The notes beneath the pieces are model-generated. The model made no database searches. It was not told the DNA's origin and was given only the letters and a program-made list of their open reading frames with translations. This document shows positions 42,838-57,831 of a stretch of DNA of 64,000 bases, piece after piece. Both the position numbers and the translations under genes were made by a program. The stretch covers positions 744,001 to 808,000 of the forward strand of contig NZ_FXUE01000001.1 in the NCBI RefSeq assembly GCF_900182935.1, in the 5' to 3' direction. This DNA is from Fibrobacter sp. UWB10. Lineage in GTDB: Bacteria; Fibrobacterota; Fibrobacteria; Fibrobacterales; Fibrobacteraceae. Every line of letters begins with the position of its first letter. Position 1 is the stretch's first letter.

Positions 42838-42870
42838 GCCACACGGATTGGATTTTACTCACGTAAAATC
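42838..42870 (-). repeat. Variable-stem hairpin element with GTGTGGC tail (copy C)
   Basis: On the minus strand: GATTTTAC-GTGA-GTAAAATC followed by CAATCCGTGTGGC, immediately before the start codon of the small barrel gene. The same stem arms recur at 57799-57818, and the tail recurs at 48947-48959. Confidence 0.7.
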
Positions 42871-46494: not shown

Positions 46495-46709
46495 AATAAA
46501 TCCTTTTTGTTCAGGTACAATTTAGAAAATTCAATATATTATCGTCTTTTCATACCCATTTGTAAAGCAAGGATTTTAAAGGATTTGCTTGTGATTCCGG
46601 CGCAAAAAATTTTTTCTGCAAAAACAAGGGTCAAAAGTAGACACTTTGGCTCATTTTGGCGTGTTAATAAAAGAGGGAGTGCTCCACAATTTAACACGAA
46701 AGGAAAAAA

Positions 46710-47498
46710 ATGAATATCAAGTCTTTTGATGACCTTGACATAACAGACCCGATTATGTTCGGGCTCGTTTTCAGCAACAAGCACATCGCAAAGCCCTTCA
46801 TAGAACACTTGCTGGGCATTGAAATCGACCACTTGGAAACTCCGGTTCCTGAGGCGGTCTTGAGCTACGATGCGGAACACAAGGGCGTCCGCTACGATGT
46901 GTTCGCGCGTGAAACTAACGAAAATGGTGAAACAATCCGTTCCTTTGATTTGGAGATGCAAATGGTTGATACTAAGGAGCTTCCGCAGCGCGCCAGATAC
47001 TATCAAAGCGTGGGGGACGGCGTAGCCCTTTCGAAGGGAAGCTTTTACACCAATCTCAAAGAACAGTATATCATCTTTCTTTGCCCTATGGATATTTTTG
47101 GGCGGGACTTTCCTGCGTATCATTTCGAAAACAGGGCGCGCGAAGATTTCAACGTCACATTGAACGATCTCACTTACAAGAATTATTATATATTTACAAG
47201 GTACAAGGATTTCAAAGACCCAGTCGTCAATGCGTACATGAAGTATTTTGCGACGAGGAATGTGGACTCCCGTGAAACTAAAACCATCAACGACCAAGTG
47301 TCTTATTACAAAGCCGACACTCTCATAAGGAACAGGTATATGACTTTCGAATATGACCTTTATGAAAGCAAGGAAAAAGGCAAAGCTGAAGCCAAACTCG
47401 AAATGGCAACGGCAATGCTTGCTGACGGCGAACCTATCGAAAAGATTGTCAAGTATTCGGGTCTTTCTGAAAAGAAAGTACTTGAATTAAAACCTTAA
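46710..47498 (+). CDS. Rpn-family recombination-promoting nuclease (PD-(D/E)XK)
   Basis: A 262-residue protein of the Rpn/PDDEXK_2 transposase-like family: LDITDPIMFGLVFSNKHIAKPFIEHLLGIEI, an Asp63 in GVRYDVFA, and the catalytic SFDLEMQ (Asp80, Glu82, Gln84). Known members are DNA endonucleases linked to horizontal transfer that raise RecA-independent recombination. The C-terminus has the usual basic/acidic EKGKAEAKLEMATAMLADGEPIEKIVKYSGLSEKKVLEL tail. RBS AAAGGAAA. A terminator follows directly, and a degraded second tail lies just behind it, which indicates past duplication and loss. Confidence 0.87.
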   Translation: MNIKSFDDLDITDPIMFGLVFSNKHIAKPFIEHLLGIEIDHLETPVPEAVLSYDAEHKGVRYDVFARETNENGETIRSFDLEMQMVDTKELPQRARYYQSVGDGVALSKGSFYTNLKEQYIIFLCPMDIFGRDFPAYHFENRAREDFNVTLNDLTYKNYYIFTRYKDFKDPVVNAYMKYFATRNVDSRETKTINDQVSYYKADTLIRNRYMTFEYDLYESKEKGKAEAKLEMATAMLADGEPIEKIVKYSGLSEKKVLELKP

Positions 47499-47511
47499 AA
47501 CCAATTTTGGT

Positions 47512-47537
47512 AGCCCGGCACAACAACCGGGCTTTTT
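47512..47537 (+). terminator. Rho-independent terminator after the Rpn gene
   Basis: AGCCCGG-CACAACAA-CCGGGCT followed by TTTT, 13 bases after the stop codon. Confidence 0.88.
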
Positions 47538-47576
47538 GTATTCGACAGGGCTAGGTGGGCGGAGGGGGGGGCTTGC

Positions 47577-47718
47577 GAGTGGTATGGAAAAAGGTATAGA
47601 AAAAGGTGCTCAGCAGGAACGCGAAAAGAACGATGCGTTGACAACTAAGCGTGCGGATTACTTACGTTCGCAGAACGTGCCTGACAGCGTGATTTCAGCA
47701 ATGTTAGCTCTAAAATAG
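47577..47718 (+). pseudogene. C-terminal remnant of a second Rpn-type nuclease gene
   Basis: The open frame encodes GMEKGIEKGAQQEREKNDALTTKRADYLRSQNVPDSVISAMLALK, which resembles the charged tail of Rpn/PDDEXK_2 proteins (EKGxEKG repeats followed by a short helix). No catalytic domain or ribosome site precedes it. The frame technically extends to 47536 inside the terminator of the intact gene. It most likely records deletion of a duplicate copy. Confidence 0.55.
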
Positions 47719-47743
47719 CGTTTTTGGCAAGTCCGAAACGTCC

Positions 47744-47769
47744 AAGTCGATCCTTTGGGTCGGCTTTTT
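47744..47769 (+). terminator. Terminator-like hairpin after the Rpn remnant
   Basis: AAGTCGATC-CTTTG-GGTCGGCTT with two G-T pairs and a following T run. Confidence 0.65.
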
Positions 47770-47837
47770 AAATTTGAGAAAGAAGAATAATTTAAATTTG
47801 GTGAAAACGGGTCTTTTGAGGTTCTAGGAGGTTTTCT

Positions 47838-48857
47838 GTGAAAAAGTTTTTTGTGTTGTTGACTATTGCCGCTTTGTTTGTCGCTTGTGGCGATGAATCT
47901 AGTAGTTCTGCGCCTGCTTCGGACCCAAGCGAGGAATCGTCTTCGTCAATTGAAAAGACAAACGAATCTAGTTCCTCGGCGACAGTGAAAAATTCATCTA
48001 GCTCCGTCAGCGGAGACAAGAGCAGTTCTTCTGTCAAAAAAGAAGATTCTAGCAGCAGCGCTGTGAAGTCTTCTTCAAGCGTTACGCCGAAGTCGAGCAG
48101 CAGCGAAGAAGTTAAGCGGTCTTCTTCAAGTATTGTGGCTTTGAGCAGCAGCGTGGTGGAACCGTCGAGTAGCAGTTCGTTCGACAAGGAGTTTAATGGA
48201 TCGCTTTGGCGTGCTGGCGCGTATAAAGCATTTGTTGACCCGCGCGACAACCGTGAATACTATTACATACAAATTACCGGCAAAGACACGGCAGGTAAGG
48301 CTGCCACAATCAAGGTGATGGCCGAAAACCTGAATGTCGGCGAATTCGTTTGGGGCTTTGAGGATCAAGAAGATGATTCTAAAATAGAACGCTACTGTTA
48401 CAAAAACGATACTGCTAACTGCAACAAGTACGGTGGCCTATACCAGTGGGCAGAAATGATGCAGTTGCCGAGCCGTTGCAACACCGAAAGCTGTGCCGAT
48501 TTAATCAAGCCAAACCACCAGGGAATATGCCCCAGTGGCTGGCGTCTGTTGACTTATAATGACTACTACATTGTGGTGCATGCTGATAACAATGAAGATG
48601 GAGTAAAGGGAACCCGTGCTGGTTGCTTTGGCGGCAGCGATGATACTGGCTATAGCCTTGTTGGTACTGGGATTAGGACAACTGAAGGGGGGTTTGATGA
48701 TTTTGCTGAAGCAACTTTTTGGTATTATCCTGTTGAACAGTCTTCAAACCCACTTCGAGCTTCGTGTAATGGTATGAGTCGTTCTCAAACAACCATTTCA
48801 CTTGGTTATCAAACAAAAATTTCAGGAACATCTGTCCGCTGCGTAATGGTTGAGTAA
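47838..48857 (+). CDS. Lipoprotein with Fibrobacter succinogenes major paralogous (FISUMP) domain
   Basis: A 339-residue protein. The GTG start at 47838 follows AGGAGG. The signal ends FVACG (lipobox VAC). Residues about 22-110 are a serine-rich linker with runs of Ser. From about residue 140, YYYIQITGKDTAGKAATIKVMAENLNVG, CNKYGGLYQWAEMMQLP, HQGICPSGWRLLTYNDY, and the C-terminal SVRCVMVE match the FISUMP domain (TIGR02145), an expanded Fibrobacter surface domain with a C-type-lectin-like WR/GxY core. Five cysteines in the domain suggest disulfides. Function is unknown; substrate adhesion is often proposed. Two hairpin-repeat elements lie just downstream. Confidence 0.9.
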   Translation: MKKFFVLLTIAALFVACGDESSSSAPASDPSEESSSSIEKTNESSSSATVKNSSSSVSGDKSSSSVKKEDSSSSAVKSSSSVTPKSSSSEEVKRSSSSIVALSSSVVEPSSSSSFDKEFNGSLWRAGAYKAFVDPRDNREYYYIQITGKDTAGKAATIKVMAENLNVGEFVWGFEDQEDDSKIERYCYKNDTANCNKYGGLYQWAEMMQLPSRCNTESCADLIKPNHQGICPSGWRLLTYNDYYIVVHADNNEDGVKGTRAGCFGGSDDTGYSLVGTGIRTTEGGFDDFAEATFWYYPVEQSSNPLRASCNGMSRSQTTISLGYQTKISGTSVRCVMVE

Positions 48858-48880
48858 CCACCATTATCGATGTCTAAACA

Positions 48881-48913
48881 GAAATCACGTTAGTGATTTC
48901 GAATCAGTGTGAC
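48881..48913 (+). repeat. Variable-stem hairpin element with GTGTGAC tail (copy A)
   Basis: GAAATCAC-GTTA-GTGATTTC then GAATCAGTGTGAC, 24 bases after the FISUMP gene. The tail is identical in copy F (57819-57831) although the stem differs. Confidence 0.7.
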
Positions 48914-48927
48914 AATTATATTGTAAA

Positions 48928-48959
48928 AAATGCCGTTAGGCATTTCCAATCCGTGTGGC
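48928..48959 (+). repeat. Variable-stem hairpin element with GTGTGGC tail (copy B)
   Basis: AAATGCC-GTTA-GGCATTT then CCAATCCGTGTGGC, followed by a T run. Different stem from copy A but the same loop; the tail matches copy C. Confidence 0.7.
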
Positions 48960-48973
48960 CTTTTTAGCTTGCG

Positions 48974-49380
48974 TCAAAGGAGGTGCCGGGCAGTGCCCGG
49001 CATGACAGCGGGAGCGTCATGCCCAAAGGCGGAGGAAAGTAAGTCGGTGAGCGGACAGTAAAGGCCGCAGGCCGTAATTTGTCCGCGAAGCGAGCTTATA
49101 CTCATAGAGCATAACTCAACTAAGGCAACGAGTTGCCAAGTTTCGTTTACTTCTGGAGCCGTTTGTAGCCGGGGCGTTGCGGGGCGGCGAGCGCCCGCAG
49201 AGGGGGTGCTGGAAGACCCGGCTATAGGCATAATTGTATATGGCCGAAGCGAATGTTGTTAGCAAGCGAACGAGCCACGGGAATTCCCGTGATAGTGAGC
49301 GGGTAACAACATCGCGAAGGCCATGCACATATGCCGGGGCTGCAAGCAGGGGGACCCCTCCCCCTTCAACATAAGCATAT
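48974..49380. other. Structured non-coding stretch, candidate RNA or dispersed element
   Basis: The longest gene-free gap in the window (48858-49454). No ORF here has protein-like composition or a credible start. Stems that can be seen include TGCCGGGC-AG-..GCCCGGCA (48982-49001), GCATGAC with GTCATGC, GCGGACA with TGTCCGC enclosing GGCC-GCA-GGCC, GGCAAC-GA-GTTGCC, TAGCCGGG with CCCGGCTA enclosing a GC-rich inner hairpin, and a long arm from about 49226: GGCATA, TATGGCC, GCG, ATGTTGTTA pairing with TAACAACAT, CGC, GGCCAT, TATGCC, capped by the perfect palindrome CACGGGAATTCCCGTG. A pyrimidine-rich end (CCCCTCCCCC) then poly-T follows near 49360-49386. Confidence 0.5.
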
Positions 49381-57634: not shown

Positions 57635-57663
57635 TATCCAACAAAAAGAAATTCTTTTTTGTT

Positions 57664-57691
57664 GCCACACGGATGGTACTAAATGCTAGGC
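57664..57691 (-). repeat. Degenerate hairpin element with GTGTGGC tail (copy D)
   Basis: On the minus strand the tail CCATCCGTGTGGC is present (57676-57664), but the stem upstream is reduced to CTAGCATTTAG. A partial copy of the family. Confidence 0.45.
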
Positions 57692-57743
57692 TCAAAAATA
57701 GACTTGCAAGCAATCCTGCTTCACTCGCCTTACGCATTTATTG

Positions 57744-57763
57744 GGAATCACTAACGTGATTCC
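57744..57763 (-). repeat. Variable-stem hairpin (copy E, tail lost)
   Basis: On the minus strand GGAATCAC-GTTA-GTGATTCC, the same loop and nearly the same arms as copy A, but the tail diverges after CAAT. On the plus strand a TTTTT run follows, so it could also terminate the lipoprotein gene. Confidence 0.6.
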
Positions 57764-57798
57764 TTTTTCGTATCATTTTATTCAATCAACAAAATTCA

Positions 57799-57831
57799 GA
57801 TTTTACGTTAGTAAAATCGAATCAGTGTGAC
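57799..57831 (+). repeat. Variable-stem hairpin element with GTGTGAC tail (copy F)
   Basis: GATTTTAC-GTTA-GTAAAATC then GAATCAGTGTGAC. The tail overlaps the last codons of trmB on the other strand. Confidence 0.7.

Follow-up and report, generated by a model that had tools for sequence, protein, structure and literature searches.

The two hairpins at positions 48881 to 48959 of the window, i.e. of the 64,000-nucleotide stretch of the Fibrobacter sp. UWB10 genome analysed here, are best explained as gene-less members, similar to MITEs or Rickettsia palindromic elements (RPEs), of a mobile family whose full members encode a GxxExxY protein. We interpret such hairpins as the ends of a mobile palindromic element and GxxExxY as the protein that would cut these ends and drive movement, a reading to which we assign a probability of about 0.6.

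Results

Hairpins of the window

Copy A (48881-48913, plus strand) consists of the stem-loop GAAATCAC/GTTA/GTGATTTC followed by G and the end AATCAGTGTGAC, and copy B (48927-48959, plus strand) of AAATGCC/GTTA/GGCATTT(C) followed by C and the end AATCCGTGTGGC; these are exactly the tandem hairpins with unlike stems and a common loop and tail described in the original prediction. A and B form a direct pair, a layout also found at loci L109 and L118. Copy A corresponds to the right half of a composite that has lost its left half, and the linker preceding copy B, ACAATTATATTGT, looks as if it were made of the outermost nucleotides of two ends in direct contact. Copies that stand alone or in direct pairs, as A and B do, may be decayed or rearranged halves.

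In the window the loop-and-tail pattern has three matches, with 0.01 expected. Further copies had been proposed at 42.85 kb and at 57.7-57.8 kb, and both places do hold copies, with details that had to be corrected. The solo copy at 42838-42870 (minus strand, GATTTTAC/GTGA/GTAAAATC, end AATCCGTGTGGC) is intergenic and has a GTGA instead of the predicted GTTA loop. At 57.7-57.8 kb one of the proposed elements is a bare end and one carries another tail, and with the right hairpin they form a single composite (57664-57831), which comprises a left end with no hairpin (57664-57674, GCCACACGGAT), an inner hairpin (57733-57763, minus strand, GGAATCAC/GTTA/GTGATTCC) with the tail AATAAATGCG at 57733-57742, and a right hairpin (57799-57831, GATTTTAC/GTTA/GTAAAATC, end AATCAGTGTGAC). 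Positions 57654-57764 also match a second dispersed repeat that occurs in many Fibrobacter species, including some without GTTA hairpins.

A dispersed family of palindromic DNA

The hairpin is dispersed through the 3.48-Mb host genome, as had been predicted: loop plus tail match exactly 41 times and the reversed control pattern not once, and a covariance model built on 40 copies recovers 56 solid copies (E ≤ 2.2e-5). Further copies were also found in other Fibrobacter genomes. The consensus is an 8-bp stem, a GTTA loop closed by a C-G pair and the tail AATCMGTGTG. Loop, closing pair and AATC.GTGTG are invariant columns, 6 of the 8 stem pairs change on both sides, and every copy in the alignment has the foot CACACGGATT (or CACACTGATT).

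The predicted covariation of the arms is borne out, as 87 stem cells show double changes versus 25.8 ± 3.4 in shuffles, but its attribution to selection on the folded form, if taken to mean an RNA fold, does not hold. An RNA helix under selection is expected to tolerate G-U far more than A-C. The covariation also holds in 268 copies selected on loop and tail alone: their 2144 stem cells comprise 1955 Watson-Crick pairs (91%), 32 G-T and 55 A-C or C-A combinations (25 of these 55 at the outermost stem position, which is often unpaired), and no clear excess of G-U wobble was seen on either strand. Since G-U is no commoner than A-C mismatches, the hairpins are a DNA palindrome and not an RNA fold. 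Selection at the RNA level is likewise countered by the occurrence of copies in either orientation and between both convergent and divergent gene pairs, by outward pairs with unlike stems and by in-frame copies within proteins. No Rfam covariance model matched the hairpins in the window, a tRNA being the sole hit at the gathering threshold.

Usually the unit is one half of a composite of 70-130 bp with outward inverted ends, laid out as GYCACACGGATT-hairpin-spacer-hairpin-AATCCGTGTGRC or, more fully, as [A]TTGYCACACGGATT-n-stem-TAAC-stem-spacer-stem-GTTA-stem-n-AATCCGTGTGRCAAT. Pairs face outwards, with their tails out, in 55 cases and inwards in 2, the distance from CACAC to GTGTG being usually 68-93 bp, and the outer ends are inverted repeats whose conservation reaches RCAAT. 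Identical stems were found in none of 64 pairs, with 7.8 expected; one stem is usually T-rich (GATTTT-) and the other A-rich (GAAA-/GGAA-). Over the 64 pairs no offset or length of a target-site duplication stood clearly above mismatched-flank controls. A complete gene-less copy is thus a unit of about 70-130 bp with inverted outer ends, a short perfect palindrome with a TAAC/GTTA centre inward of each end and an AT-rich spacer.

Distribution and insertion sites

Copies are patchily distributed over Fibrobacter genomes, with 61 in the host genome, 30 in G003 and 15, 11, 3 or 0 in others. The motif is also present in 58 of 116 rumen Treponema genomes, with up to 57 copies, and in rumen Neisseriaceae MAGs, spanning three phyla from sources that are mostly gut or rumen. 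The composite at 57664-57831 is absent in genome G060 of the same species as well as in other species (G009, G029, G003, G019 and G036), and the copy at 42838-42870 is absent at the orthologous site in G029. Copies A and B share a 2.8-kb segment (46578-49372) with an Rpn-family nuclease gene (46710-47498) and a FISUMP lipoprotein gene (47838-48857). This segment is missing in three related species (G009, G029 and G003), where 46577 joins 49373, and no element copies lie at its ends. Base-exact empty sites of gene-less copies were not recovered. The patchy distribution, the presence or absence at orthologous sites and the sharing across phyla argue for a mobile DNA element. The loop-and-tail pattern is also carried by 21 IMG/VR viral contigs (L245-L265).

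In Treponema, copies lie in frame inside GltB (glutamate synthase large chain), HsdS and ABC proteins, where they encode xHGLDFANAKS...ETALAxSNPCDN; the GltB insert is a stretch not present in the homologue 7mfm. Intragenic composites had a length divisible by 3 in 8 of 8 cases checked, the residues 0/1/2 for all 55 composites being 21/17/17. Among sampled loci, 15 of 18 FISUMP genes lie within 300 bp of a copy, and hsdS genes of Treponema and Fibrobacter are unusually often neighbours of an element, 8 of 9 at a distance of no more than 300 bp, or carry one in frame (loci L127, L153, L177, L178, L205, L232 and L167). Both enrichments may reflect shared hot spots or passengers. Fibrobacter FISUMP genes are often bracketed by hairpins (L103, L111, L116, L118, L121 and L218), as if travelling with them. 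We rejected bracketed segments as gene cassettes: above about 0.9 kb their contents are mostly ordinary host or FISUMP genes, and bracketing at this scale therefore mostly reflects neighbouring insertions.

GxxExxY genes between inverted ends

Longer copies of about 0.45 kb contain a single gene with a product of about 125 amino acids. The gene between these same ends is GxxExxY (PF13366/TIGR04256; clear family match, 1.9e-44); at locus L177 its start lies some 12 bp inward of one hairpin and its stop 5 bp short of the other. The first 38 Fibrobacter genomes searched gave four PF13366 hits, all of them next to hairpin ends or enclosed by them, and the same is true of several GxxExxY genes of Treponema and of that on the T. 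saccharophilum plasmid pTS1. Most other GxxExxY genes examined are flanked by other inverted arrays of repeats of about 10 nt (for example CACAGATT, CACAGAG, CGCAGAT, AAAGAT and CAAACGGATT). At locus L289 some dozen TCACACGGATTG-like units stand in tandem and hairpins are absent, so that the window element's tail is one of these repeat units.

Flanking inverted repeats with a score of at least 10 were found for 20 of 23 distinct GxxExxY genes, compared with 6.4% of 500 control ORFs (p = 1e-12), and for 16 of 17 further GxxExxY genes across the phylum, compared with 14% of 22 (p = 5e-6). Five of eight plasmid-borne GxxExxY genes, including those of Bacteroides and Bernardetia, have inverted ends and three do not. 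At the hisG-hisB junction, some Treponema species carry GxxExxY units, of two different repeat types, whereas other species have none. This junction is a recurrent site of GxxExxY insertion with at least two repeat types (L340-L346, L349 and L363).

Genomes with PF13366 are more often hairpin-positive (p = 0.0018 in Treponema, p = 0.02 in Fibrobacter). No GxxExxY gene was found in the host genome with its 61 copies, in G003 with its 30, or in 34 of the 58 hairpin-positive Treponema genomes. Because such copy-rich genomes, including the host, are without the gene, GxxExxY would have to act transiently, be lost or be only a passenger. Relatives of the L177 protein on viral contigs numbered four by profile search and none by single-sequence search.

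GxxExxY as a predicted nuclease

To our knowledge GxxExxY is a widespread family that has no known function and does not figure among the known transposases. The residues invariant in diverse members are E28 (of GxxExxY itself), D68, E78 and K80 (E78xK80) and Q92, and Y96 follows Q92. Judged from these residues, the protein has a complete PD-(D/E)XK site with the QxxxY motif of RecB/Cas4 enzymes. A sequence search of the PDB returned no significant relative of GxxExxY. The AF2 model (pLDDT 88, pTM 0.82) has its best fold match in the Cas4 protein SSO0001 (Z 9.8, rmsd 5.0, 103 aligned residues) and also matches lambda exonuclease. GxxExxY is thus a predicted PD-(D/E)XK nuclease of the Cas4/RecB/lambda-exonuclease type, a fold match alone being no proof of function.

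Discussion

Bracketing by itself cannot tell a mobiliser from a passenger. In the closest alternative the element is likewise mobile palindromic DNA, GxxExxY being merely carried along while host repair, the recombination-promoting nuclease Rpn or another enzyme moves it. We consider this unlikely, although it would fit the many copy-rich genomes without PF13366, the host genome's Rpn genes, 3 of 5 being no more than 2 kb from a copy, and the enrichment of FISUMP and HsdS genes beside copies. Against it, the intact genes in short (<1 kb), tightly bracketed segments of the pattern-sampled loci are GxxExxY, none of the host genome's Rpn genes is tightly bracketed, and GxxExxY genes with quite different end sequences keep inverted ends, so that gene and arrangement go together.

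That the hairpins are REP/REPIN-type elements mobilised by an HUH tyrosine transposase (RAYT) is improbable. Inverted palindrome dimers, a conserved foot and unlike partners do resemble BIMEs and REPINs, RAYTs being the presumed mobilisers of REPs (PMC3116915, PMC8266576). The GTAG/GGAG foot tetranucleotide is absent from the aligned copies, however, and the short bracketed ORF is GxxExxY and not RAYT. The host genome has one Y1 (PF01797) gene, a 145-amino-acid ORF of IS200-like appearance with no copy within about 2.5 kb; as this sole gene is not associated with copies, we rejected RAYT/IS200 as mobiliser. We give still less credence to a structured RNA, i.e. a terminator, mRNA stabiliser or processing signal: the covarying stem and the many copies just downstream of stop codons would suit it, but, besides the lacking wobble excess, the mixed orientations and gene-pair contexts, the in-frame copies inside ORFs and the missing Rfam match, there is no U-run after the stem. 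Least credible of all are integron-like attC sites separating gene cassettes, a reading suggested by the TAAC/GTTA core and by the copies that sometimes bracket Fibrobacter FISUMP genes, since GTTA is always a hairpin loop and never a base-of-stem box, ordinary genes, for example a panC-like ORF, are among those bracketed, and the copies are scattered and form no array.

As palindromic mobile DNA the element falls among known kinds (REP, RPE, MITE), as a variant set apart by its foot, loop and ends. RPEs, some of which are classed as CGTC-REPs, are likewise short palindromic mobile DNA with unlike stems and head-to-head dimers (PMC3733652, PMC10969869), and they too insert into many unrelated genes with the reading frame kept (PMC10969869); a dedicated transposase is not known for them (PMC3733652, PMC10969869). 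The hairpin element shares the in-frame insertion into ORFs and the head-to-head dimers by which CGTC-REPs/RPEs are recognised, whereas the CGTC (TGTC, CCTC) foot and CCA tail that also define them (PMC3733652) are absent from the copy alignment, and it differs from RPEs in its loop and tail, its longer inverted outer ends and its larger relatives with a nuclease gene. With REPs, BIMEs and REPINs it has in common inverted hairpin pairs, a conserved foot and an intergenic, patchy, MITE-like occurrence (PMC3116915, PMC8266576), but it lacks the GTAG foot, has no RAYT beside its host-genome copies, and has stems that change freely in sequence. Classical MITEs of DDE transposons are likewise gene-less units of about 100 bp with terminal inverted ends, and the element is indeed short, gene-less, bounded by terminal inverted repeats and dispersed in multiple copies; it differs in that no target-site duplication was seen and no DDE transposase was found with hairpin ends. 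Its larger relatives with the same ends encode GxxExxY, a candidate mobiliser.

Returning to the mobile element driven by GxxExxY, we propose that the protein would recognise and cut the element ends, probably when these form single-stranded hairpins or a cruciform, that host repair would then copy the element to another place, and that the short gene-less copies may be moved in trans. More tentatively, with chances we put somewhat below even, GxxExxY could define a widespread class of minimal mobile elements, in which a stand-alone Cas4-like nuclease of about 125 amino acids, set between inverted arrays of repeats of about 10 nt or palindromic ends, moves itself and gene-less copies without a known transposase, integrase or reverse transcriptase and enters genes in frame. 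The literature searched, with subscription papers outside its scope, nowhere describes GxxExxY as a mobile element or mentions inverted repeats flanking it, and the tie between GxxExxY and the element is undescribed as far as this literature shows.

The in-frame copies are a case of mobile DNA by which conserved enzymes, glutamate synthase among them, gain additional peptides. We know of no mobiliser for palindromic repeats such as RPEs, and a link to GxxExxY would explain both the palindromic repeats and the protein family, the nuclease and its ends forming a testable pair. If GxxExxY proves to be the mobiliser, this would be categorically new, a way of transposing that relies on a Cas4-like nuclease.
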